NCBI RefSeq assembly: GCF_963675165.1
Contig: NC_087393.1
Location: 4,407,502-4,471,501, forward strand
Length of the DNA stretch: 64,000 nucleotides
Source of the DNA: Halichondria panicea
Taxonomy: Eukaryota > Porifera > Demospongiae > Suberitida > Halichondriidae
Direction of reading: 5' to 3'
Under the pieces are notes generated by a model. The model saw nothing but the letters and a program-made list of their open reading frames with translations, made no database searches and was not told the DNA's origin. Below, one piece after another: positions 39,601-60,845 of this stretch (its first letter is position 1; the number at the start of each line of letters is the position of its first letter). Both the position numbers and the translations under genes were made by a program.

Positions 39601-42600
39601 GATATCATACTTTCTTGGGGAGACAGCAACTGGAAAAGAACCTGCAGGAATTACCATGTGCTACTGCAGTCTCGTGAGCCGTATTACAATCAGCCCGCGA
39701 GACTAGTGCTACTGAGACTTTACTCTAATAAAGCGAATAATTATGACAACATGTATTTTTCAGATCATTACGGTATCTTCACACAGCAGCCATTTTTGTT
39801 TGGCCGTTTGAAGCTTCTTTTTCAACACACAGGTGTCTAACAGCTTTATTTCAACTCTGAGTAGCTAGCTAGGAGATGGAGACCACACAGGACCCTGCAG
39901 CGCGTGTTTGGTTGCCTCCAGACCCAAAGACCCAGCCCAGAATCACGGATTTCTTCCATAGTAGCCCAGAGAAGGGGGGCACCTCAGAGCAGCTGCAAGA
40001 TGGGCTGCAAGATGAAGCTGGAACAACTACAAGCTCTGCGGGTAAGTAATATTTAGCTAGCTAGACTGAGCTAGCTACCAGCCAAAAACGTTGCATGCAA
40101 ATGACTGACATGACCTCTCAACATTGCAGATAAAACACAGCCAAACGCAACAAATCCTTCACCCAAAAAGAGCGTCAAAGAACCGAAAAAGACAAATACT
40201 TCAACACCTAAAAAAAGAGGTCGAGCAAAAAAGGCTACGAATATGGGGGATGGCGAAATCCCAATAGTGGAACAGGTTCCAGTTGGAGACATATTTTTGG
40301 GTGAGGAGATGATAGTCCAGACATCGCTCAACCCAGTAGAAAAGCCGTTTGTGGAAACTCCACCTAGCAAGAAACGTAGACGGTCATTCACTGTACAACA
40401 AAAACGAGAGGTGATCGAATATGCAAAAAAACACAGTCTCTACAAAGCATCAATCGAATACAAACTTAGCTGTGGTACGATTGGTCCATGGATGAAGAAA
40501 GATTTCTCTGAAATGGAAAGCATGAGTTTGCGAGCACATGGATCGGGGAGAAAGCTTTCGTACCCTCAACGATTTGAGCCTACAATAACCCAGTGGATTC
40601 TCGAGCAAAGAGATATTCGACCTAGCATCACCACTCAAGAAATAATCGATTACGCTTGTTCTCTCATCAAAGCAGAGTGTCCTAATTTCAGAGGCACCCG
40701 AGGCTGGTTTCAAAAATTCCTAGTTCGAAACAACATCTTGAATCCAGACAGTGAGCCACTTTCAAAGACACTTCCTCCTCCTTTAGAGGAAAAAATCACC
40801 AACTTTCTCGAGACTCTCAAGAAAACACGAGCTGAATACGATTATCCATCGGAGCTCATAGCGAACATGGATGAAGTGATTGTCAATATTGACATGGCTA
40901 GCAACAGAAAGACTGATAGAAGCAAGACAATGGTGTTCCCCACGTACACAGTTGGGGGAGAGACACAAAGCTACACACTCGGAGCTGAGAAACAGCACAT
41001 CACAGTGGTCCTGACTGCCTTAGCCAACGGGACACTCCTCCCACCAATGATCATCTTCAAGGGTGTCAAAACTCCCAAACACATTAGTATGCCGAGGTAT
41101 GTTAATACACGATACAATACACTATTAGCTAGCGTAATACACAAACTAGTAGTACATGTAAACACACAGCAAGACTTTATTGCGCATTATAATTATATGT
41201 ACTGTATGTGCTGTATTTCAAACTCACGTACACATGTATGTATATACAGAATACTTTAAAACTGTTAATTCTTTTTTTATACAGTGATTGGCTTGTGTGT
41301 GTCCAGGACAGTGGGTACCTTGACTCTAGTCTAATGGACCTTTGGACCAGGGAGATTTGGCTAAAGCACACCCAGTCTCAAAAAGCTCTCCTAGTGATGG
41401 ATTGCTGCCACCCACATGTGACAGAGGACTACACGACTACTCTATCTCAAAACAACACCACCGTGCACCAAGTCCCAGCCGGTTGTTCGACTAAGCTACA
41501 GCCTGTGTCTGTTACACTTGCCACTCCCTTTAAAGACCTATGCAAAACCTTGTGTGCAATCTACTATCAAGCAAAGCTAAGCTCTCTACAAAACCCAGGT
41601 GACAGGCTAAGATCTGCTTCTAAAGAGGATATCTGCCCTTGGCTAGTTTCTGCCTATACACATGTGACTAAGATGCAATCAGAAGTTGCCATGTCTTTCC
41701 TAACTACTGGCCTAACTCTAGCTATTGATGGCTCGGAAAATGGCTTGTATCGAATTGACAACAAGGTAGAGGCTAAACCTATTCAAGACCAACCTATTGA
41801 AGAGAAAGTCGAGCAAGAAGATGTTCAAGAAGATGTTCAAGAAGAAGCTGTAGTGACCGAGATAGTGACCGACCTAGCACAAGCACAAGGAGATCCAGTA
41901 GTGGCTCTTACAGAGCTCGATAATTCCCTAAGTTCACTCAAGACTCTCTATAGCTACATGCTACAAATGCAAAACAAGGCTCTCTCTGAAAGTGACATGC
42001 AGATACTAGAAGAACAGCTACAAACACAATAACCTGTTGTGTACATACATGTTCAGACACATGACCCTACGTATAATTATGTATTATAATTATAATTATA
42101 GCTTCATAATAATTATTATTATAACCCTAACATTCAGTTTTTTTCATGCCATACTTTGAGGTGCATTTTCGTGAGGTGCAACATCGAGGGCAGAGAAGAC
42201 ACGAAAATTAAAATTTGGGAAAAGATATTTCACATTGGTGGGTGTGGTTTCCTGGTATTGAACCGCGAATATTAGAACCCACGAAAATAATTTCTGCCGA
42301 GGGCTCACGCATGGAGCCAAACAGCGAAAATTTCCCACTATACAGAAACACATGCACATGTACATGTATGTATACGTACAGTACTTACTATTTAGCATCT
42401 TGATTTCTGACTTACTAGTGAAAGCTTTCTTGGGTGAATATGAACCTGAGCTTGAGACCATGAATGAGTGTTTCTTCTCCGACCCCTGTGCACAAAGAGT
42501 TATAATTATGTATATACTCTACAGGCCCACTAATGTGGTCCTGTAAACAGGCATTGGGTACTAGGCACACAGAGTACAGGCCCACTAGTGTGGTCCTATA

Positions 42601-44560: not shown

Positions 44561-47500
44561 CTAACATACTGCTTCATAATCAGACACAAACCCAGTTCTA
44601 GAGCAGCTACCGATTCCTCTACAAACAGAGCAAGCCAATTTCGGGCTATCTTTACACGACCAAAACTCTTTGTTCATCACCGAATACAGGAGACAGCTAA
44701 CTTCAGGGCTTGAGCAGAACTGATGCAAATATCCTCTCGCTTGGCTGAGCACAATATCTCGAGGCATTGAGTAGCTTAGTGTGTTGAAAAATACCATAAG
44801 TTCGTTTATGTGCATGTTCTTGTCGATTGCTTTCTGTCCGTAGATCGCCAAAATCGCTACACAGATAAATAAATGGAAAGAGTTCGTCTTGTAGTTGGAC
44901 CAACACGTCTCCCAGATTATCAGTGCGTCTTCTTCATAGAACTCTCTCTTGAGACAGACAAGTAACCAACGGTGACAAAACATCAATGTGGTCCCGTCCT
45001 CAATATTTTCAAGGTAGATATAGAACGATGGAATGAGCATCTCAATCAAAAGTCGCAGCGGCTCCTGCATGAAACAAAACAACACTTTTATCAATCTACT
45101 GAAATTATAACTGGAAAATTTAGTGGGTGGGGGTGGGTGTTTTAATTTGGCGATTTGGCGATTTGGCGAATTTTACCAAAGATTGCCAAATTTAAAACCG
45201 TCAAATTAAAGTTTTCCGGTGGACACAACGTCATTGCAGCAGTAGGCAATTGCAAATCAAAAAACGCCAATTACATTTCAAATGGCTCATGAGTCAAATT
45301 TTAAAGTTAAGTGAGTAAGTAAGATATATATTTTATGTCTAGAAGGATAGCCTCCTACGCAGCCCTCTGAAACCCTTGCTAATGTGTACATGTACCTCCA
45401 TAATTATAGTTGCTATATTCATGCACAGCACAATACTGGTTAATCTGAGGCCTGCGTACTGGTATATAATTAAAAGCATATTTACTCACAATCTGATGAG
45501 TGACGGAGATGTGGTCTTTGCCCGGTTTGTAGAAGGCACTGCTCTGCACTAGTTTAGTAAAGCACCAGAATGCCTCAGCCTCTTCGTCCAGTGCAGCCAG
45601 CAGAGGAGCCAGGAGATCAGTCATGCCTGTGTGGGAATGAAGACCATTGGTAGCATATCCTGGGAAATGTCCGGGCACATAGTTACAAGTTACTTACAAG
45701 CACGTGCGTTTGATTGGAACCTTTAGCACAAAATCACACTCTCGCTCGGTAATTATGACTAAAACAGTCAAATGTGCTAATCATACATAGTGTACACACC
45801 TTGACAATACCGGATGTTTGGCTTAAAAAGTAGGTAGTTCAAAATGATATCCCTGCAGAGGCAAAGAAGAAATGATAAATGTAGACAGACAATCATGAAA
45901 GACAAAATGATTCATTCTGATTATCATAAGCAGACATTAGCTAGTGGATAACTACAAAACGTTTTGTATAGCCATGCCTATTGTATCTCTGCAACTGGTT
46001 CCCAAAATGGATGTTAACTCAAGTTTAGCTAATTACAGAGCCATCTATACGTACGTACATGAGTGTGTTGCAGTGAGCATTGTCCTCTCCCTTGTAGTAG
46101 GAGGTGGAGCGATCTGTTCTCACCACGTCCTTCTCTATCTGATGGTACACGTCTGGGCGGCCACCCCTCCCTGCTGAGTCAGCACCCCCAGACACATCCT
46201 TCAAGTAACCGCCAGACCTCTCGTTCTCTTTCCTACAATTACACGGTAAACATTGTACTTTCAACATGCCTAGTAATCTACACCAAGCAGGTATAATTAT
46301 AGTCAATCATCACACTGGCACTAATGGCCCTCGGGAATACATACAACACATAAGGGTAAAATCAGTACTGACCCTTTATGTTAAAAATATGCTAAAAGGC
46401 TACAAAAGTGGTGCCAATCCCTACTAAAAACCCTTATGAGATTACGGAGATATTGAAGAACTTATACGTACCTTCTTTTGTCAAGGGCCCAGTATTCGTC
46501 CCTCCTCTTGGCTCTGATGGCATCCCTCTCCCCCGCAGTCGAGTGAAACGTGTAGAGACCCAGAAGGAATGGCCACACCTCCTTCCTTAACGAGGGAGAA
46601 ACCCCTTGTAGGAACACAACCTGGGAATAATGCAAATAAAACGTTATCTTGCTGAAACTACATGTACACAGAGTAAAGTATATTTTAATTTTACTGTTCA
46701 TGTATAGCACACTAATAAAAAATTAAACTGAAACTGCTTCACAAATCAATAATAAGAGGACATACAATGGTGTCTGCCTCAGACATCATCTTAGCAAGGG
46801 CCAGTCACTTGACAACCAAACAAGAAGTTTGCACGATCTACATTTCCTCACCAATAGGGTGTTTTCAATTGTGAGTGAAAGAGAAATTATTATTGGTTCA
46901 CCTTCCTGACGTATCCACTGTCCACAATCTTCCCCTCCTGATCGAGCAGATCTCTCCACACCTCTTTTGTCAGAACACTCTTGATCGTACCCTCGTCTGG
47001 GTGGAGCTCTGAGAGACTCAGCTTGGGACGAAAGATGGTGAATGTGTGCTGATGGGTCTCCTTGTGACAATGGTGCTTGAAGAAACTCCACGAGCGAAAC
47101 AGGTGGATGAGGTCATTGAGTCCACCATTCTTGAAATGAAATACCTGGAAGATATAGTTGTAACTATCAGTTAAAACAGTGCAATAATAGAAACCACACT
47201 TTAAGCTTAATAATAAAGTTAACGTTACATTCCAAGAACAAGGAACACAAACATATTGTGTTTGCAAGCTTTATACTACACTTCCAGTGGGGAAAACAAC
47301 TGCACACATCTGCTCCACGTGCACACAGGCCATTGTGTTCTCAGGACTACATTGTAGTGCCCATACAATCACTATAATACAATTTATCGATCATCACGAT
47401 AATGGGTTGAGGGTTGTAAAACAACAGACAGTGTGTCACTAAGAGCATGCAAGAATACATACTGTACTTCTAAAACAATCACTCACTCTGAATTTCCGGT

Positions 47501-48227
47501 CCTTGCTTGTGATGACCATCTCCCCAGATATGAGCAGCCCATTATCACCAATACGATAAAAAACCCGAATGACCTCCATGAGTCCAAGATCGATGGACAC
47601 GGAGGAACACTCCTCACCCCCAAACCCACCACTATTACTATCCGACAAAGACAAACTTCGACTCCCTCGGGTGACATCAACGGAAACTAGCGATGCTTGG
47701 CGTTGGGCTAAAATACTAGAATTGGGGGCCCAGTTTAAAATGAGTGTGGTTCCGAAATCGGAGCCCCTGGTTGTAATAAATAGGAAGCCTGGAATGAGAT
47801 CTTGGCTATCGCGGCTTGCAGCTGCTGCCCTGGGCAGTCTGGTCTCCTTACTGTTATAGCTGTCACCAGATTCCCCTAGAGAGGAGGACAGAGAATAGTC
47901 ACGAGACGAACGCGAAAGGGATGAAGACGTCGAAACGCTTTTCTTTCGAGGGTGTTTCAGATAAACATTGTTTTTACGGAAAAGTATATCGTCAGCATCT
48001 AGCGTTCCGATTGGTTCAACTGGGGATAGGACGGGTGAGGGTGTGCGACTCCATTCTTTGGATAATGGCTTCTCGCTGTTGTGTGTGACTACTCGTAGCT
48101 CTTGTTCATCAACGTCATTATTGATGCTCTCGAATTGTGGTCTCCCTCTTCGAGTTAGTGTGTTGAACGCTTTATCAATAAATGACTTGACTGTTGTGGC
48201 CATGTTCATCTGGAGGTTAGTAACCAA
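44561..48227 (-). CDS. TBC1D16: TBC1D16 orthologue, Rab GTPase-activating protein (666 aa)
   Basis: Exons: 47,487-48,227; 46,902-47,144; 46,472-46,620; 46,059-46,232; 45,800-45,852; 45,490-45,626; 44,561-45,064 (2001 nt, phases match). The N-terminal part resembles TBC1D16 (DDILFRKNNVYLKHP; GTTLILNWAPNSSI). The FHFKNGGLNDLIHLFRSWSF block precedes the TBC domain, about residues 340-590: EVWPFLLGLY, the Arg finger IEKDVVRTDR, the Gln finger RYCQG, GMTDLLAPLL, FCHRWLLVCLKREF and HLFICVAILAIYG. Both catalytic fingers are present, so it should be an active Rab GAP (human TBC1D16 acts on Rab4A in endosome recycling). The C-terminus after the TBC domain carries Cys-rich CKDSPKLACSVCRGIGSC. A second in-frame ATG 24 nt downstream of 48,227 could also start translation. 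Confidence 0.9.
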
Positions 48228-48543
48228 TCTCAGTGAAGCTCTGCAGAGAGTATCAAAACCTAGTACCTCATACTAGATATAATTATCAGTAGACTACATA
48301 ATGTAGGTATATAAATTATAGGTATAGCTATGGTCTACCTGTTACAGATCAATATAATGCCATTTCTTTGTTCCTCTTCTTGCTGTAATAGTTAAGTTCT
48401 GCAAAAGAAACTCAAAATTATCTTTGTTTCTTTGCCTGCTTCCGGTGGGGGCGTGTTTTCAGAATTCTCAAACAACGACCCCGACACGTGGTACAACAAA
48501 AAGCGGTTGCATCGCGCGTCATCCACCCACACACACTCCTGAT

Positions 48544-48593: not shown

Positions 48594-48911
48594 CCTGATA
48601 CAGAAGCCATGACCCAAAAATAGTTTATGATTATCAAGACATAATAATTATTTATACTACAGCCTTGCGCCTCAGTTCAAGGCCGATATTTTAATCGGCC
48701 TTGATCGAGGCTAATCAAGACACAAAAAGGATGTACGCACAATCATTAAATACGTATGAGGATCTATTCTACTGTTAGCTACCTCTGCAGATCAAAAAGA
48801 CAAACTATATAAATCATACATACATATATCATATCTACATAATTTTATATCTACATGCTCTAATAAAAATAGTCTACCACTTTCGTCAACAAAGCGTACG
48901 TGCATGACAAA

Positions 48912-51900
48912 CTACATATACTTGCTATCTAATTGTGTGACCAAGTCAGTGTGTAGTGGGTTGAGTCTGAGAGTGGAGACAAACTCGTGGTACTTGTGGG
49001 GGTGGTGTTTGACCACACCCAGCAGGGCAGTGTACAATCTGGTGGCCTTCTCTCTCTTGGTCTCATTTAACTCGTTGGTTTTCTCAAGAATAGACACAGT
49101 GATGAGCCCAGCTGACAGGAGGTGGAGGGCCAAACCCTTTGGATCCTCAGAGAGTGACTGGACTATCTTCTCACTGCAGCTCACCAGCACACTGTAGCCA
49201 GCGTTACCTGCAGGAGAGAGGAAATAGTTAGACATGATACGCCCACACAACCTAAGTCTACAATGTACATGTAATGTGAACAAATGACTCAGTACAGTAT
49301 ATACATGTATAATAAAAGTTAAAGGTAATTACTTAAAGAAAAAAGATTACAGGTTCAGCTCTGGAGTATCTGCATGAAGTGTACTATGAGACACTGACTT
49401 CAGAAATGTCGATGGAATAGCTACAAAAGCACATAATATTATCTTTGTGTGGATGAGTCACTTTTTCTTGCGAGAAAATAATCATGTGATACGTTGCTGC
49501 TCGCAATCGATAAAGTAGAGTCAGTCTGTATATATGCATAGAAATAATTATGATTGTAATCTAAGTTTTTAAAAGTACCTTGTTTTCATGTTCTTCTAAA
49601 ATAGGAGCTATTTTTTCGGTCTCATTTTACTGACTAAATGTTTTTATGGTTCCAGTCTCTGGGTAATAGAAAGATATCGAGGGTCAGTATAACGTTATAT
49701 TAACTAAAGATGTACTAATATTGGGGTCTCTCTCAACGTACCACTTGTTATATTTATAAGAGCTGCTTCATGCAGATTTAAAATTTCACGAAGATGCTAT
49801 CTAGTAGCTCAGTGGCGTAGGCAGAGGGGGGGTTGATGGGGCTAGAGCCCCCTGCTTCATCAACTCCAACTCAGCTTGAATCACCGTTATCTGTCAATCT
49901 ATTCTGCACTGTACTGCATGCATATCGTTACTATATAATGATGTCATTCAATAGAAATGTGGGCAGGGGCCTTCCATCTAAGAGGAAAAGTGATGACCTT
50001 TTTTTTTAGGTAAAATTCTAAGTTATTCAGCGCCTGCTCTGGCCTTGCTCAACCAATTTGAGCCCTGCCCTTCTCAAAATCCTGACTACGCCACTGTAGC
50101 TACCTGTTTTTTTGTACATCTATATATATAGCGGGTTATTTTTGTATGGTGGACATTTTTGGATATTTTGTATTGTAGAGCATCATACGAATTATTCTAC
50201 CGCAATATATAGTAGACCAATATTGTTCATACATTTGCACCAACGAAAATTACCCGCTCACTAAAACTAAGACTAAGACAGCATGCATAGTTAAATAGTA
50301 TATCATATAGCTACTCACCTTTGGCTGACAAGTACTGTGCCACCTTGATAGCAACGTCTCCTTTGTCCAGGGAGATTAGGATGAGTAGCAGAGCTCTGAA
50401 GGTGCCCTCTGCAACAACTCTGTCCAGCCAATATTTCAGAGCCAACTTTATTCCAGCTTGTGTTCGATTCATGGCTGTTCTAGCCTTCTCTTCAATGACA
50501 TCAGTTTGCTGTCCAGGTGAGAGCCTCAGCATTTCAACATAGTCATTAGTGTTGTCGAAATATGACGATAATTTGGGAAGGTCTATTTCTTCTATTCTTG
50601 TGTCAAGCTGCTCGTCAGTGATATTACTTTCTCTCTTTAGTGTTTCAACGGTTAGACCTGATAACACAATAATTAACATCACACTTGTGCCTTTGGGCTT
50701 CTAAATCCCATGACACCTCCAAAACAGTGTCTAACTATTATTATTAAAGCACCATGCATAGTGTCCAATGTATTAGAATCACGAAAAATTTCCCAGAAGT
50801 GTCTGGGATAATTGAATAATTGTTAACTGATAATAGTATACAGCTACCTTGTAATGTTTGTGGAGCACACAATTATCTTTGATGATGCAAAATAGCATTC
50901 TAGCTTTGTGTATAATACAGTATCAACTTACTGGTAGGTACTTCTCTTAGGGTGTTTATTGTGACGTCACTTTGCTGTCCAGATGAGAGGCCTGACTCCA
51001 GATAGCCGTCATGGGTGCTGTCAGATTGTGACAACATTTCAGAGAGGTGTGTTTCTTCTACTGTTGTGTCAAGCTGCTCGTTAGTGACTTCAATGTCTCT
51101 CTCAATAGGCAAACCTTGCGAAGGAAAGGATCGAGAGCGGGTTTGTTGCAGGACATAATACAACAATAATTTTAAATTCAATGTCAACGTATATACTACT
51201 AATAAAGGCATATACACATGCAATCGCAGATTATTGCTTACTTTGTAGCTGTTGTTTTTGGCTGATTAGTTTGTCAGAAGTTTCAGTAGCTGTGGAATCC
51301 TGACTAGCTGTAGGTGACATATCCTCTTGTAGTTCATTCAGATCTTCAGCAGTAGATTTGAAGTCCGTATCATCACTGGTAGAATCTTCTGAATCAGTAT
51401 TACTGTACTGTGAGTGTAAGGAGATAATTATATATATTTCACATGTACTCATGCCTTTTACGACTTTCAGCCTGATCAAAAAAGCAAAAAGTATATATTT
51501 GGCAGTATACAATAATTTTTGACGGCAATCATCATCGTTCTTATCAAAAATTTAAACATTACATACATAGTAGGTCTTGTATATAGACACTGTATTTACT
51601 TACTTCTGGTAGAGAGTCACTTGCATCATCTGGTATTGATTCAGAACTAGTGTAATCAAATTCTTCATCTTCAGACGTGTTTCTCTCCTATAAAATGATG
51701 CAATATAATATTCACAGTAACCATGCAATGTGCATGGCTATATGTATATATACATAATCCAAATAATACGTTACGAAACTTCGACACAATTTCGCGAAGC
51801 TTCGTTAAATGTTCGTGAAGTTAACATTTAGAAACTAAAGTTCAAAATCCGTTATTTGGGGTTTACGCCTCAGGTTAATGAGGATATTAAATTTGTAAAC

Positions 51901-54900
51901 CTTTCCAAGCTTGTGACGAAGCTTCTCAAACCAAGTGCTAAGTTTTTGCAATTAACCTACGATACATTTCAAGACTATAAATTAGGACTATAGAGTGTGA
52001 TCTAGTTACTACATGGCTGAGGGCTTCTATAAAGCATGGACACCAACAAACAGTGTCTCAGTCGTTTAGGTACTAGTGCACATGCGTAAACCTGTCTCGT
52101 GGCTTGACTATACAATACTACTTTTCTTGACAACGGGAAACTAAGTAAGTTGTAGGTATACTAAGTCCCATAGTATACCTCCTCTGAGGCACTGTTCCCA
52201 TGTACTTTTCACATGTAGATCTTATCAACTAGTGTGTGTATAATTATATATAACACTAAGAGCTGCAACTCCGGGTTATAATATATATACAGCAATACCA
52301 ACAGTCAGAACAGATTTCCTCAAAACTTGATGAATCTTTTTCGTACAATGAAATTGCTGGAGTCTTACCTGCAAAAACTCTTCAAGTCTTTTCAATCCCT
52401 CCGTACTCACGAGATTGTCATCTAGATCAATATCTTCAATACATGGAAACACAGAAGGCAAATAAGTAATAAGGGCAGTCACTGCGTCATCACCAATGCT
52501 GTTGTTTTGAAGGTCCAAACATTTTAAACACTTTCGTTGAATATCGTGAGATTTAAGGTATGAAAATAATGTAAATACATCATTTGAAGTAACCTGACAC
52601 TGATCACAATCCAGCTTCTCCAGTGATGGACAGCACTGAATACATTCAGCTAGTATGAAAATGTTCTTGCCATGAAGCAAATTTCGCCAAAGACCGATAC
52701 TTATTGTATTGCTGTTAAGAGATTCTGAATTTAAAACAGGATTGTTCAAACAGAGGTCAGTAATGGAAGTGTGAAGGGTTGATTCCAGGTGAAGTCTTGT
52801 TATTGGACAGTTTTCGCTAGAGAGCATTCTAAAGATGGCTGACAAACCACTGTGTCCAAGTGGATTGTTATCAACACACAACTTAATTTTACAGGAGAGT
52901 GGGTTTGAAACATCCTCAAAAGAAGCCAATACTTTATCAGAAAGTTCTTTCGCTGCTTCACTGTCGAGATTAGTCTCACTTAAGTTCAACTCCAACTCCT
53001 TCCTATTAGTAGCAAGTCTTACAAACGCCTTTCCTATTGCACCAGCTCCAGGTACACCGATATTGTTCTCAGAAAGATCAAGGTCCTCCAGATGAGGACA
53101 GTGAGAGGCAATTGATGGTAAGAGTTCAGTTAGTAGTCTTCCATTCTCCTCAACATTGTCAGGGAGGGTATTTGATAGTTGCATCCTCTCAAGATTACCA
53201 AAAATGTTGGCTTTAATAGCGATTGTCAAGCAAGCAACATGAGTGTCCCCGCTTGGTTTGTTGTTTTGAAATGACAGCTTTTTCAATTTGTTAAATTGAC
53301 CAAAATAAGTTGCCTTTATTTGACCTTGATTGACTGCATGTGTGTGGTCTAGATCAAGTCTTGTTACTGGACAGTTTTCGTTAGAGAGCATTCTAAAGAT
53401 GGCTAACAAGCCGCTGTGTCCAAGTGGGTTGTTATCAACATGCAAATCAATTTCACAGGAAAGTGGGTTTGAAACATCCTCTAAAGAAGCTAACACTTTG
53501 TCAGAAAATACTTTCGCTGCTTCACTGTCGAGATTAGTCTCACTTAAGTTCAGCTCCAACTCCTTCCTATTAGTAGCAAGTCTTACAAAGATCTCTCCTA
53601 TTGCACCAGCTCCAGGTACACCGATATTGTTCTCAGAGAGATCAATGTCATTCAGATGAGGACAGTGAGAGGCAATTGATGGTAAGAGTTCAGTGAGTAG
53701 TCTTCCATTCTCCTCAACATTGCCAGGGAGGGTGTTTGATAGTTGCAACCATTCGAGATTACCAAAAATGTTGGCTTTAATAGCCATTGTCAAGCAAGCT
53801 ACATGAGTGTTCCCGCTTGGTTTGTTGTTTTGAAAATACAGGTTTTTCACTTTGCTACATTGACCAGGTAATGTTAGCGTTCCAATTGAGATTGCCGTTA
53901 TTTGGCCCTGTTTGACTGCATGTGTGTCGTCTAGATCAAGTCTTGTTACTGGACAGTTTTCGTTAGAGAGCATTCTAAAGATGGCTAACAAGCCGCTGTG
54001 TCCAAGTGGGTTGTTATCAACACGCAAATTGATTTCACAGGAGAGTGGGTTTGAAACATCCTCTAAAGAAGCCAATACTTTATCAGAAAATTCTTTTGCT
54101 GCTTCGCTATTGAGATTAGTCTCACTTATTAATAATTTCAGCTCCAAATCCTTCCTATTAGTAGCAAGTCTTACAAAGATCTCTCCTATTGCACCAGCTC
54201 CAGGTACACCGATATTGTTCTCAGAGAGATCAATGTCATTCAGATGAGGACAGTGAGAGGCAATTGATGGTAAGAGTTCAGTGAGTAGTCTTCCATTCTC
54301 CTCAACATTGTCAGGGAGGGTATTTGATAGTTGCATCCTCTCAAGATTACCAAAAATGTTGGCTTTAATAGCCATTGTCAAGCAAGCTACATGAGTGTCC
54401 CCGCTTGGTTTGTTGTTTTGAAATGACAACCTTTTCAATTTGCTACATTGACCAGGAAATGTTAGAGTTTCAAAATGAGTTGCCGATAATAGGCCCTGGT
54501 TGACTGTATGTGTGTGGTCTAGGTCAAGTCTTGTTACTGGACAGTTTTGGTTAGAGAGCATTCTAAAGATGGCTAACAAACCGCTGTGTCCAAGTGGATT
54601 GTTATCAACACGTAAATCAAGTTCACAGGAGAGTGGGTTTGAAACATCCTCTAAAGAAGCCAATACTTTATCAGAAAATTCTTTTGCTGCTTCGCTATTG
54701 AGATTAGTCTCACTTAAGTTCAGCTCCAAATCCTTCCTATTAGTAGCAAGTCTTACAAAGATCTCTCCTATTGCACCAGCTCCAGGTACACCGATATTGT
54801 TCTCAGAGAGATCAATGTCATTCAGATGAGGACAGTGAAAGGCAATTGATGGTAAGAGTTCAGTGAGTAGTCTTCCATTCTCCTCAACATTGTCAGGGAG

Positions 54901-57900
54901 GGTGTTTGATAGTTGCAACCATTCGAGATTACCAAAAATGTTGGCTTTAATAGCCATTGTCAAGCAAGCTACATGAGTGTTCCCGCTTGGTTTGTTGTTT
55001 TGAAAATACAGGTTTTTCACTTTGCTACATTGACCAGGTAATGTTAGCGTTCCAATTGAGATTGCCATTATTTGGCCCTGTTTGACTGCATGTGTGTCGT
55101 CTAGATCCAGGGGCGGATCCAGGAAAAACAAAAGGGGGGGGCTAGCTAGAAAGTGGGGAAGCCCCGTACGAGGGTGGCGGAGCCGCCCAGGGCAGCCTCG
55201 CCAGAGGCGAATTTTTTTGCAAGATTTGACCTTTAAACTTTTATATTAATACGTTGACCTCTGCACTTACTTTTAATACTATGGTGATACTGTACTGATC
55301 AGATGTACGTACGTACAGCTAGCTAGCTAGCTAGGTACGTCCAGCTAGCTACCCTAGATCCTTTATACTCCTAGTAGCTGTTGTCTAGCATCTCTCAAGT
55401 GATTTCAAGTGAGTCTACAGATGCATAATTGGTGGCAAAATTGTTGTAGAGTCAGACTACAACACATGGTAGTTTTTTCAAAAGGGGGGGGCTTCAGCCC
55501 CTCAAAATCACCCCTGGATCCGCCCCTGAGATCAAGTCTTGTTACTGGACAGTTTTCGTTAGAGAGCATTCTAAAGATGGCTAACAAGCCGCTGTGTCCA
55601 AGTGGGTTGTTATCAACACGCAAATTGATTTCACAGGAGAGTGGGTTTGAAACATCCTCTAAAGAAGCCAATACTTTATCAGAAAATTCTTTTGCTGCTT
55701 CGCTATTGAGATTAGTCTCACTTATTAATAATTTCAGCTCCAAATCCTTCCTATTAGTAGCAAGTCTTACAAAGATCTCTCCTATTGCACCAGCTCCAGG
55801 TACACCGATATTGTTCTCAGAGAGATCAATGTCATTCAGATGAGGACAGTGAGAGGCAATTGATGGTAAGAGTTCAGTGAGTAGTCTTCCATTCTCCTCA
55901 ACATTGTCAGGGAGGGTATTTGATAGTTGCATCCTCTCAAGATTACCAAAAATGTTGGCTTTAATAGCCATTGTCAAGCAAGCTACATGAGTGTCCCCGC
56001 TTGGTTTGTTGTTTTGAAATGACAACCTTTTCAATTTGCTACATTGACCAGGAAATGTTAGAGTTTCAAAATCAGTTGCCGATAATAGGCCCTGGTTGAC
56101 TGTATGTGTGTGGTCTAGGTCAAGTCTTGTTACTGGACAGTTTTGGTTAGAGAGCATTCTAAAGATGGCTAACAAGCCGCTGTGTCCAAGTGGGTTATTA
56201 TCAACACGCAAATTGATTTCACAGGAGAGTGGGTTTGAAACATCCTCTAAAGAAGCCAATACTTTATCAGAAAGTTCTTTCGCTGCTTCACTGTTGAGAT
56301 TAGTCTCACTTAAGTTCAGCTTCAACTCCTTCCTATTAGTAGCAAGTCTCACAAAGGCCTCTCCTATTACACCAGCTCCTGGTACACCAATATTGTTCTC
56401 AGAAAGATTAAGGTCCTTCAGATTAGGGCAGTGTGTAGCTAATGCTGGAAGAAGTGTGGCTAACATTGTTGTATTGATAATATCTGTGTCGTTTGTCAGT
56501 GCACTAGATAGACACAAGTACTCAAGTTTTACTAGTGAACCTGCGCGTACAACACTCTCTAGTGACTGGACGCCATTTTGCCAGAGTGGATTCTTGGATA
56601 AAGAAAGGCTAGTTAATGTGTTATTGCTGGATGAAAATGGTAAAGCTTTGATAAAGTTTCCATCTAGAGATACTTTGTAAAGATACCGAAATGATGCTGA
56701 TGCTTTGTTAAAGAAGGTCTCGAGACATTCACCTGTGAGCTTGCAGTTATCGAGACTTAATTCTTTTACTTGCAACTTTCTATCAATGAGGATAGTAGCT
56801 AGTTTCTGAAGCTGTTCATCATTAAGACTCCCTGAAAAATCGAGCTTGACCTCTGAACAATGTGATATACAGTTAAAAATGTGCAAAAGAGCTACACTGT
56901 CGTGAGCAGTTTGGGGCCTTCTGATTGATCTATAACAATAACTAAACTTGGCATAAATTCTGTTGGCTACTTTACAATGCACAACCTTATCCTGGGATTC
57001 CAATGAGCAGTGGCAAAGTAAAATGTCTTGGTCTCTTATTGCAAATAAAACTTGATCAACCAATGTATCACCTAAAGAGACTACTTGGTCCCTATATTTC
57101 ACTTCTTTAGACTTAAGACCGAACACAAATCTCCAGACCATATTAAACCGATTGTTTCCAGCATAAGTGTTGCAAATCTTTGTTTTCTCTTCATGAGATA
57201 AAATGACGATATGAAGGGCAGCTAAAAACTCCTGAATAGTCAAGTGAGCGAAGTGAAACGACAAGCCATAACCTGTTGTCAATGAGTTTTGTTGGCTAGG
57301 GAAATGTGAATGTGCTGATTGCAATAAACCAAAAAAAAACGCCTTCTTATTAAACTTCCCATCTTTAGAAAACGATGAAACTTCACTGTCTGAGAAGACT
57401 ATTCGATCTTTAGCCAAAAATTCAAAAGCAAACCTGCAAACTAGCCAGAAATCATTTTGAAGTTCATCAGGAATGGAATCGAAATTGTCAAGCGAGTCTA
57501 CACAGTGTTGTGGACATTTCTTCCTAATGTCACGAAGCACGACAGACAGTGTTATCCTAGCATATAGTTTTGTGATTGTGCTTGGAAGTGTTTGCTGTAA
57601 GTTGTGGCGCCACAGGTCACAAACAATCGCACAATTAAGTGGCACAGAGCACAAACTCTGAATGAGTGGATTGCTTTTAAGCTGCTCCATAAGAGAAGAA
57701 GCCTTTTCTGGATCATCTTTGAAATCCTCAACTATGTACTGTTTAATATTTTCTTCATCAAAACCCACCACCTCGATGAAAGCGTCCACTGAAGAGAGTG
57801 TGTGAAAAGGTTCTGTTGCAGAATGTCGGGAGGTGAGGAGAACAGATGCTTTGGAACAACCATAACCAAGAAGAAGTTCATATAGAAACGAGCCAGTAGC

Positions 57901-58479
57901 TCGAGCACCCTCACTTAGTTCGTCCCAGCCATCAGCTATGATGAGGACACCTTCTCCCTCTTTACCCTTCATCCTTTTTGTTGGAGGTATGCAGGTCTCC
58001 TCATCGGGATGGAAAAGTTTAATCAGCTCAGGGAGGCTTGTGGCAGAGGACACTCGATTTTCTCTCAGTGGAAGCAGCAGAACACAATCAAATTGTTTCA
58101 GGATATTACCTTTTGCCCACTCCTCAGTAAGCATGGTACACAGTGTAGTTTTACCAATCCCAGCATTGCCTTTCACAACAATCTTCCTTACTGGTTTGTT
58201 GTCACTGCTAGTAGACTTGAACAGGTCAGTGTGGAGTATTGATTTGCGTTTCTCTTTGTCATCTTTGTCATCTTCAGGTTGCTTGCCATTGCCACTCGAA
58301 CGATTCCCCTTGTTTCCAAACCCTTTTATTTTATCAGTCTCGACTAATTGCAGTTTGAAAAGTCTTCTAAGTTGTCCGTCTCCTCTAACTGGTAGCCATT
58401 GTTTATTTTCTCCAAACTCTCTGTTTATGTATTTTTTCTTGAGACTAGTTACAAACCTGTTCATGCATGCATGTATCAT
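48912..58479 (-). CDS. NACHT-LRR receptor with C-terminal Death-like and CARD-like domains, split by a MITE
   Basis: The main exon runs from 58,479 (possible ATG) to 52,369, interrupted by the MITE at 55,108-55,528. NACHT: Walker A GNAGIGKTT near residue 104 and Walker B VLIIADGWDEL near 178-188; a short LKKKY...QWLP segment precedes it. Six LRR modules follow. A GTAAGA donor at 52,368 (phase 0) joins 51,604-51,687 and 51,242-51,407 (acidic Ser/Thr-rich), 50,932-51,114, 50,319-50,657 (Death-like: LRLSPGQQTDVIEEKA, ALKYWLDRVVAEGTFRALLL, GDVAIKVAQYL) and 48,912-49,207 (CARD-like: LALHLLSAGLITVSILEKTN, TKREKATRLYTALLGVV, stop). All phases fit; without the MITE the frame is about 2250 codons. With it, translation stops inside the element unless it is spliced out. 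Death-fold domains are normally N-terminal in NLRs. The true 5' end and any N-terminal exon are not seen. Confidence 0.75.
49810..50096. mobile_element. MITE, CAGTGGCG family, TSD TAGCT, in NLR intron
   Basis: CAGTGGCGTAGGCAGAGG at the left and CCTGACTACGCCACTG at the right. TAGCT is duplicated at 49,805-49,809 and 50,097-50,101. 287 bp; close relative of 24,569-24,866. Confidence 0.85.
50121..50261. mobile_element. MITE, GTATAGCG/TTTTCG family, in NLR intron
   Basis: TATATAGCGGGTTATTTTTG at the left, CAACGAAAATTACCCGCT at the right. It lies 20 bp beyond the preceding MITE, in the intron between 50,319-50,657 and 48,912-49,207. Confidence 0.6.
52795..56680 (-). repeat. Six tandem 585-bp LRR modules in the NLR exon
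   Basis: The block containing CTTGTTATTGGACAGTTTTC or CTTGTTACTGGACAGTTTTB starts near 52,793, 53,348, 53,938, 54,528, 55,542 and 56,121, about 585 bp apart apart from the MITE. Each encodes about 195 residues with FQNNKPSGDTHVACL, LPSIASHCPHLNDIDLSENN, IGVPGAGAIGEIFVRLATNR and DNNPLGHSGLLAIFRMLS. The stretches 53,930-54,500 and 55,533-56,105 are almost identical, including a 6-nt insertion near 54,128 and 55,730, so a multi-module segment was copied recently. Confidence 0.9.
55108..55528. mobile_element. MITE, CAGGGGCGG family, TSD AGATC, inside the NLR exon
   Basis: CAGGGGCGGATCCAGG and CCTGGATCCGCCCCTG are perfect 16-bp inverted ends. AGATC is duplicated at 55,103-55,107 and 55,529-55,533; the uninterrupted site (CTAGATCAAGTCTTG) is preserved in a sister module near 53,930. 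The element is 421 bp; with the target duplication it adds 426 nt, a multiple of three, but it brings an in-frame stop on the coding strand near 55,405. Confidence 0.9.
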
Positions 58480-59337: not shown

Positions 59338-60845
59338 TGATACCCTGCCTATGGATACATGGTCAACACCTCTAAAACTCATCTGATAGTAAAAGCCAGC
59401 CAACTCTCAGAAGCCCAAACAACTTTCGAAGACACACAGATCAACATCACCACAATTGGGAAACCACACTTAGGATCCCCTCTTGGAAGCCAGGAATTCA
59501 CAGAGTCATTTGTCAGAGATAAAGTGCAGACCTGGTTAGAGGAACTGAAAAAATTGTCGATCATTGCGAACACCCACCCTCAAGCCGCTTATGCCGCTTT
59601 CACCCACGGCATTGTAGGTAAATGGACGTACCTAGCGAGAACCACCCCAAACATTGGCCCACTGTTACAACCACTGGAAGACATCATAAGGACAAAATTA
59701 CTCCCAGCCCTGTGTGGAAGAGCAGCCCCCAATGACACAGAAAGGGACCTGCTGGAACTTCCAGCTAGGCTAGGTGGAATAGGGGTCATCAACCCAACAA
59801 CTCTGTCAGACTCGGCCTACTCTGCCTCCAAACAAATCTCTGCGCCCCTCTACAACCTCATACTAAACGGAAGCCTGGACTATACACACGAGGCTCTCAC
59901 AGAGCAGTTTACAGCAAGTTAGAGGTCAAAAAAAGAAAAAGGGAGCTAAACGTCACTTCTGCAGACCAGCTCAAGTCAAACCTACCACCTAACCTCCAAC
60001 GAGCTATGATCTTATCCCAGGAAAAGGGAGCCTCAAACTGGTAACAGTACTACCTGTGGAAGAATTTGGCCTAGCACTGCACAAAGGTGCCTTCAGAGAC
60101 GCACTAGCACTCAGATATGGGTGGCAACCCAATGGCACCCCAATCACATGCGCTTGTGGCACCAACTTCTCAGTGGAACACGCGTTATCATGTGCCAAAG
60201 GTGGCTATCCCTCCATAAGGCATAACGAGATCAGAGACTTCACGGCCAACCTCATGTCAGAAGTTTGCCACAATGTCGCCATAGAACCACATCTACAACC
60301 CATCATCGGCAAAATTCTGTCAGGTGCATCTGCCAACACACAAGATGGTGCCAGATTAGACGTGGCAGCAGATGGTTTTTGGGGAAGCAGGTTTGAGAGA
60401 GCATTTTTTGATGTTAAGAGAGCCTATGACCAACGAATCAGAGATGTAGAAAACTCGACCTTCACTCCCCTCATCCTGTCAAGTACTGGGGGCCTTGGAC
60501 GTGCCGCTACCTCCACCTACAAGAGATTGGCGTCTCTCCTGTCAACAAAATGGGATCAGCCCTACAGCACCACCATGGGATGGATCAGATGCAGGCTGTC
60601 CTTCTCTCTCCTCAGATCAGCCATCATGGGCATTAGGGGGGCCCGATCAAGCCAAGGGCACGCCACCAGACAGCCCCCTATCGACCTAGTGACAAGCGAG
60701 TCTCTGGTCCCACCACACCCATGAACTAACTACACATGACTTATTTGCCTGCATGGTTCCTCGTTATTATTATTATTCTTTTGTACATGTAATTCTTCTT
60801 AGCCCCGAGATGGGAGAGCTATGAAAAAAAAAAAAAAAAAAAAAA
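59338..60845 (+). pseudogene. 5'-truncated R2-type (REL-endonuclease) LINE with poly(A) tail
   Basis: The frame opens at YPAYGYMVNTSKTHLIVK (C-terminal reverse transcriptase region) and continues through ANTHPQAAYAAFTHGIVGKW and LPARLGGIGVINP. After a frameshift near 59,920 it reads LQRAMILSQEKGASNW, and after another near 60,040 EEFGLALHKGAFRDALALRY. A CxC-x8-H-x4-C zinc motif (CACGTNFSVEHALSC) precedes RHNEIRD, then RLDV and FERAFFDVK, like a PD-(D/E)XK restriction-like endonuclease. The stop is at about 60,724, followed by a 3'UTR and 22 A (60,824-60,845). Dead copy; same order as R2/NeSL-group elements. Confidence 0.75.

Follow-up and report, generated by a model that had tools for sequence, protein, structure and literature searches.

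PIDD1 carries, after its LRRs, a C-terminal Death domain that forms a caspase platform; this protein contains no NACHT domain and displays ZU5 autoproteolysis. In NLRP1, a C-terminal CARD located after the NACHT-LRR region can signal, using FIIND, as stated in excerpts of the source (PMC10050748). Group 6 of the NLR-C proteins of the round goby is a recent lineage-specific expansion, with 12 C-terminal CARDs reported, on few scaffolds, in the part of the text considered (PMC6988351). The NACHT-LRR proteins of Dysidea avara have undergone a large expansion, in which NLRD and NLRC are the classes bearing N-terminal Death and CARD domains, respectively, according to sections of the main text (PMC12909245). 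No sponge NLR with a C-terminal Death domain is described in the portions of text covered here (PMC12909245, PMC8195603, PMC10050748, PMC6988351, PMC6208332, PMC11508797, PMC8242945), figures, supplements and the Amphimedon NLR study aside. The initial annotation of the locus analyzed below took N-terminal adaptor domains as the norm for animal NLRs, a rule qualified by the C-terminal CARDs of NLRP1 and of the round goby group 6 NLRs in the parts of these sources considered (PMC10050748, PMC6988351). Here, we analyzed a 64-kb stretch of the 131-Mb genome of Halichondria panicea (contig C17, NC_087393.1, positions 4,407,502 to 4,471,501), hereafter referred to as the window, in which the exons of an NLR gene are read on the minus strand.

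Results

Exon chain of the window gene

The window gene displays both features of bona fide NLRs, a NACHT domain (cut-off of 26.7 bits for PF05729) and LRRs located C-terminal to it, the two LRR_6 matches exceeding the cut-off of 23.4 bits (Table 1). The LRR exon ends at a phase-0 donor at position 52,368 (LEEFLQ/GTAAGA). Each of the five exons located downstream is preceded by AG and followed by GT, except for the terminal exon, which ends in TAG. Joined in agreeing phases, these exons extend the frame past the LRR exon by 355 open codons to the TAG stop at 48,912. The join proposed in the initial annotation, linking the donor to the five exons without a phase conflict, is thus borne out by GT/AG borders and a single open phase.

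Table 1. Features of the NLR gene, in window positions, with the evidence for each
Feature	Position	Strand	Evidence
Start Met candidates of the NACHT-LRR exon	58,479 or 58,461 (MNRFVTS)	-	
NACHT-LRR exon, first part	55529..58479	-	PF05729, 79.4 bits; LRR_6, 34.9 bits
NACHT domain	about 57,715-58,185	-	PF05729, 79.4 bits
Inserted repeat element, 421 bases	55108..55528	-	16-base perfect inverted ends; GATCT target duplication
NACHT-LRR exon, second part	52369..55107	-	Tandem LRR units; LRR_6, 59.1 bits; phase-0 donor end
Acidic linker exon 1	51604..51687	-	28 aa; TAG at acceptor closes frame; present in 5/5 C11 paralogues
Linker exon 2, acidic, Ser/Thr-rich	51242..51407	-	Splice borders; comparison with C11 paralogues
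Half Death domain, degenerate, duplicating the first part of the Death exon	50932..51114	-	Local Death profile, 28.5 bits
Death-type domain exon, phase 1-1	50319..50657	-	Borders; family profiles
CARD-type terminal exon with stop	48912..49207	-	Borders; family profiles
Shared 417-base stretch	48895..49311	-	blastn, 90-93% DNA identity over full length to ten CARD loci on C3, C16 and C6

Since a TAG located right at its acceptor closes its frame, the first linker exon needs to be spliced from an upstream exon. Residues D, E, S and T account for 81 of the 144 residues of the linker (half Death domain included), and the half Death exon is 47% identical to the Death exon across 49 residues. The two linker exons, the half Death exon and the Death exon recur, with order and strand kept, in all five of the nearest paralogues, located on contig C11 (77-89% protein identity, the match of the second linker exon spanning 35 of 55 residues), indicating that the chain is more than a chance alignment of open frames. 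The introns of the C11 loci are still alignable, and conservation of exon order among them therefore partly reflects recent duplication. The dN/dS ratio was below 1 for the NACHT (0.31 and 0.34), Death (0.27-0.54, 10 comparisons) and CARD (0.07-0.27, 7 comparisons) exons tested.

The start motif Met-x-[KR]-F-[IV]-T-S is common to the window gene, the C11 copies L050 and L054, and the C13 copies L058, L059 and L060; the start differs in L056, L057, the C7 member and the C4 member. In L058, an in-frame stop lies four codons ahead of the first Met, with no AG between them. Scanning the ORFs of the 64-kb window with Death and CARD profiles revealed no further match to either beyond the exons of the chain. 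Upstream of NACHT, where NLRD and NLRC proteins carry their Death or CARD, the local profiles found no match in the window. The window copy may have a distant 5' exon encoding a domain of another type.

State of the window copy and its neighborhood

A repeat element, overlooked in the initial annotation, brings nine in-frame stops into the LRR exon, so that positions 58,479 to 52,369 do not form one open exon in this assembly. Forty-two matches to this genomic repeat were listed, the window's own included; the nearest other copy is 99% identical, and the insertion is therefore probably young. Because the element and its target duplication together amount to 426 bases, the frame resumes beyond it. 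There is an even chance that the window copy is a pseudogene that has inherited its layout from functional relatives: the stops of this probably young insert, the weakness of all the in-frame GT..AG pairs around it, and stops or frame breaks in some of the C11 relatives all point to this, against the preservation of the frame, the very existence of these splice pairs and dN/dS ratios below 1 in the exons tested. Since the inserted element may have left the window copy dead or non-functional, its layout is to be judged on the family, in which open NACHT-LRR frames are present in the C7 (C7:3,303,599, 1,934 codons) and C4 (C4:3,367,302, 966 codons) members. In a self-comparison, the tandem LRR units at 52369-57000 (-) were 88-97% alike in DNA, which suggests recent duplication or gene conversion within the receptor.

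Several neighboring features were noted by eye. Two ORFs at 40114-42032 (+) resemble a Tigger/pogo-type transposase in their motifs. On the opposite strand, just upstream of the NLR, ORFs at 59341-60724 (+) look like the terminal part of a reverse-transcriptase protein from a retrotransposon; the first of them had no match in Pfam. The intron that separates the Death exon from the CARD exon contains, at about 49808-50101 (-), a further element bounded by inverted ends (CAGTGGCGTAG...CTACGCCACTG). Below the CARD exon, the neighbor at 46786-48272 (-) resembles a TBC1D15/17-type Rab GAP, nothing significant being found by Pfam for the ORF at 47439-48272; this neighbor apparently starts independently, in keeping with a terminal position of the CARD exon.

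Identity of the Death-type and CARD-type exons

Pfam scans matched neither the window Death exon to PF00531 nor the window CARD exon to PF00619. At E values up to 1, PF00531 matched 20 of the 33 members of the family alignment of the Death exon (profile A1; best E value, 2.5e-07), and PF00619 matched 6 of the 23 members of that of the CARD exon (profile A2; best E value, 2.5e-06). Some relatives of the Death exon (C3:7,872,997 and C3:6,655,597, among others) overlapped PF00531 matches above the curated cut-off, as did some relatives of the CARD exon (such as C12:5,963,384 and C12:6,134,797) for PF00619. Profile A1 scored 32.2 against an alignment of the Death domains of the genome (13 rows: the C4 Death, four of its relatives and eight PF00531 matches), the maximum of 100 column shuffles being 18.7, and 10.5, inside the shuffle range, against the CARDs of the genome. 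For profile A2, comparison with ten CARDs of the genome that are PF00619-positive gave a score of 38.6, and comparison with Death a score of 20.9, the latter just over the shuffle maximum, which was 17.9 in both cases. Each profile scored best against its own kind, above 100 shuffles. The profile of a further family, in which the Death-like sequence is split between exons, scored 35.4 against Death (shuffle maximum, 20.3) with three joined sequences only; no Death was detected in these exons by Pfam, whether single or joined, and profile comparison alone revealed it.

Searches of PDB sequences were weak and noisy. With A1, CRADD (E = 0.017) and FADD (from 0.092) ranked below a TPR protein (0.0029); with A2, ICEBERG (0.05) ranked below two unrelated chains, and 4irl, which we take to be a CARD, appeared at 0.24. 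Single-sequence AlphaFold models were poor, with pLDDT values of 61 for the Death exon (five helices) and 45 for the CARD exon, and fold comparison of the CARD model with VIA-align returned helical bundles of many kinds, none of the 50 structures listed being recognizable as a death fold; structure prediction and fold comparison were thus uninformative. Transitive profile tests scoring above shuffles support the labels Death-like and CARD-like given in the initial annotation, the window exons by themselves being missed by Pfam.

Position of death-type exons in the NACHT clade

The nearest relatives of the window NACHT exon were found at five C11 loci (85-87% identity) and one C7 locus (66%), followed by 34 NACHT pieces at 43-61%, 30 of which are on C13. 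The clade set comprised 48 rows at 43% identity or more, minus 7 second pieces of genes already counted. The NACHT domains of the window, C11, C7, C13 and C4 loci formed one clade (100/99), and the sampled NLRs with an N-terminal Death domain formed a separate branch (100/100), in a tree that, like the Death tree below, has few rows and that carries a long-branch warning.

The closest relatives of the Death exon again come from these five C11 loci, where they lie 5.0-6.8 kb downstream of the NACHT matches and are preceded by half Death and linker exons in all five; Death likewise follows NACHT at the C7 locus, at 5.6 kb. A death-type exon was present downstream (within 10 kb, on the same strand and with no other clade NACHT between) of 38 of the 41 clade NACHT pieces, downstream only for 24 and on both sides for 14, the remaining 3 having one on neither side and none having one upstream only. 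Twelve of the 38 downstream cases rest on the split Death-like family; in the remaining cases, the Death exon is of the window type or the C13 type, or is Pfam-positive. Among the 14 pieces flanked on both sides, the upstream exon (within 10 kb) was the nearer one in 4; we assign these upstream exons to the preceding gene of the tandem array, position alone being no proof. A first count of the same 41 pieces had placed Death downstream alone in 20, on both sides in 5, upstream alone in 1 and on neither side in 15; it was superseded because the split Death-like exon was found in most of the empty loci.

For the first count and that of NACHTs outside the clade, 107, 35 and 13 of the 150 rows of each of three Death match lists were entered, the first list being that of the window Death type; for the final count, 9 of the 150 rows of the first list, 34 of the 150 rows of the second, 2 rows of the third, 13 of the 38 split-Death rows and one other row were entered, and none from the list that yielded the relatives of the C4 Death. 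Match rows that on visual inspection looked far from clade members were left out, among them C13:4058302, situated some 5 kb upstream of a clade NACHT and near a row already counted as upstream. For the 71 NACHTs outside the clade, Death was located upstream in at least 24 and downstream in at least 3 (2 with both), these counts being lower bounds, and further Deaths were seen directly upstream of some of them. NLRs with an N-terminal Death domain thus coexist with the clade bearing Death at the tail in the same genome.

The initial annotation placed effector domains after the LRRs and took this receptor to be either inverted or fused to a neighboring adaptor gene. The position of the effector-type domains after the LRRs is supported; the implied singularity is not, since, with 38 of the 41 clade pieces, this is the usual layout of the whole NACHT clade in the genome.

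Origin of the CARD exon and exchange of 3' exons

The stretch of DNA shared with other CARD loci reaches 104 bases into the intron ahead of the CARD exon and, at the other end, 17 bases past its stop. Beyond the ten loci matched over its full length, nine gave shorter matches at 88-97%, so that all 19 loci (L010 to L028) matched. The encoded protein is 97-98% identical to those of the nearest C3 and C16 loci, and 19 near full-length rows for this terminal exon, the window's included, show 92% protein identity or more (C3, C6 and C16). Searching the flanks of the five C11 loci, over 1.5 kb each and up to 7.5 kb downstream in one of them, revealed no CARD, and C11 is absent from the 117 matches to the CARD exon that were listed. 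Because of its 88-97% DNA identity to 19 loci, with no counterpart in the searched C11 flanks, the CARD exon looks recently acquired. The sequence upstream of the CARD exons of L010 to L028 differs among the loci read, as if the exon itself had spread; Pfam revealed no family above cut-off in ORFs upstream of some CARD loci.

Other combinations of death-fold exons were found in the genome: Death is followed by CARD in another context at C3:8,220,175-8,220,990, and, in the C7 member, the place of the window's CARD is taken by another Death, which is split. In the Death tree, the C-terminal Deaths of the window, C11 and C7 grouped with N-terminal Deaths of other NLRs (100/99), and those of C13, C8 and C6 stood apart from them (99/97). 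Descent of all C-terminal Deaths of the clade from one inherited domain is unsupported by the trees. Joint arrival of the Death and CARD exons was rejected, because the Death exon is common to the C11 paralogues. The fusion of a neighboring adaptor gene, put forward in the initial annotation, accordingly survives for the last (CARD) exon only and not for the Death exon, which is shared with paralogues. Sequence comparison establishes the exon structure, the homology and order of the exons, and the discordance of the domain trees, and we read the 3' end of these genes as a putative exchangeable slot for death-fold exons.

One gene or separate parts

Reading through the donor of the Death exon leads to a stop two codons on (KGE-stop), and the Death exon could therefore be terminal and the CARD separate. 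Termination of the gene at the Death exon, with the CARD exon as a nearby unspliced fragment, is consistent with this immediate stop, with the derivation of the CARD exon, by similarity, from another gene family, and with the lack of a C11 counterpart, both among the 117 matches listed and in the flanking sequence searched at five loci. We consider this doubtful, since the donor AAAG/GTGAGT of the Death exon and the acceptor CTCCTGCAG of the CARD exon are near-consensus and both in phase 1, and since dN/dS for the CARD is 0.07-0.17 against L010, L011, L013 and L022.

The end of the LRR exon displays a homologous phase-0 donor (K/Q/E followed by GT) in all nine distinct clade loci read (L059 and L063, two handles for one locus, were counted once). 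Beyond this donor, read-through sequences diverge and reach stops at distances that vary among the nine loci. Neither AATAAA nor ATTAAA occurs in the 2,389 bases of sense introns from the LRR exon to the CARD exon (4.2 expected, P = 0.02; four in antisense), and two ATTAAA follow the CARD stop. The sole Met between the acceptor of the first linker exon and the half Death, located in the second linker exon, is absent from the two C11 loci read (KEDRSP). A split into two genes, with the NACHT-LRR gene terminating near 52.3 kb and a small Death-CARD adaptor gene below 51.7 kb, is thus improbable: a Met inside the half-Death exon, also present in both C11 copies read (SEM), and the Death-then-CARD order at the C3 locus would suit it, against the conserved donor, the inability of the first linker exon to start a frame, the Met missing from the two C11 loci read, the intervening sense introns free of poly(A) hexamers and the order kept in 38 of 41 pieces.

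We therefore favor, with a probability of roughly 0.8, a single gene (or its recent wreck) with the predicted order NACHT, LRRs, acidic linker, half Death, Death and CARD.

Discussion

We propose that, in a clade of about 40 NACHT pieces, the LRR exon (in the loci read) would be spliced to a 3' exon that belongs to the death-fold superfamily. The content of this 3' slot would vary by member, including two Death types, canonical Death and, in the window, also a CARD, and the window NLR would be devoid of an N-terminal effector domain. By analogy with canonical NLRs, sensing of a ligand by the LRRs would open the NACHT domain, which would then oligomerize with ATP. The clustered C-terminal Death and CARD tails would nucleate a death-fold filament, and this filament would recruit adaptors and caspases, as the N-terminal domains of canonical NLRs do. 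The linker, 144 residues rich in D, E, S and T, could act as a tether. We infer transcription through the whole chain, oligomerization and caspase recruitment.

We lean slightly toward the prediction that animal NLRs include an entire clade with tail signaling, through a 3' intron-bounded slot in which death-fold exons are swapped between genes, and that effectors of NLRX proteins have possibly been overlooked, because they lie in separate 3' exons below the reach of Pfam. If this is true, the rule that animal NLRs carry N-terminal death-fold domains does not apply to a whole clade of one genome, and some of the NLRX proteins of sponges, a large class without effectors, are possibly misclassified. 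The clade would then be a natural setting in which to ask if death-fold nucleation can be driven by NACHT oligomers from either end, and would exemplify the movement of effector exons from one receptor to another.

Among known systems, PIDD1 is similar in having a C-terminal Death domain after LRRs; it differs by the lack of NACHT and by ZU5 autoproteolysis. The likeness to NLRP1 lies in a NACHT-LRR region followed by a C-terminal CARD, with the effector at the tail, as presented in excerpts of the source (PMC10050748). In the window, a CARD of this kind is indicated by profile A2 (38.6 versus a shuffle maximum of 17.9), and its splicing into the transcript is predicted. NLRP1 differs in having FIIND between LRR and CARD and, in humans, an N-terminal PYD, whereas the window gene has Death before CARD. 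No FIIND was detected by Pfam, which is insensitive here, at E values up to 1 in the ORFs of the second linker, half Death and Death exons. In the abstract and the text sections considered of the D. avara study, C-terminal Death is not described; the large NACHT-LRR expansion is common to both systems, and the clade reported here would fall under NLRX, which have no N-terminal CARD or Death (PMC12909245). The round goby group 6 NLRs differ in that a Death slot is not mentioned in the part of the report considered, and they resemble the H. panicea clade in their recent lineage-specific expansion with C-terminal CARDs (PMC6988351).
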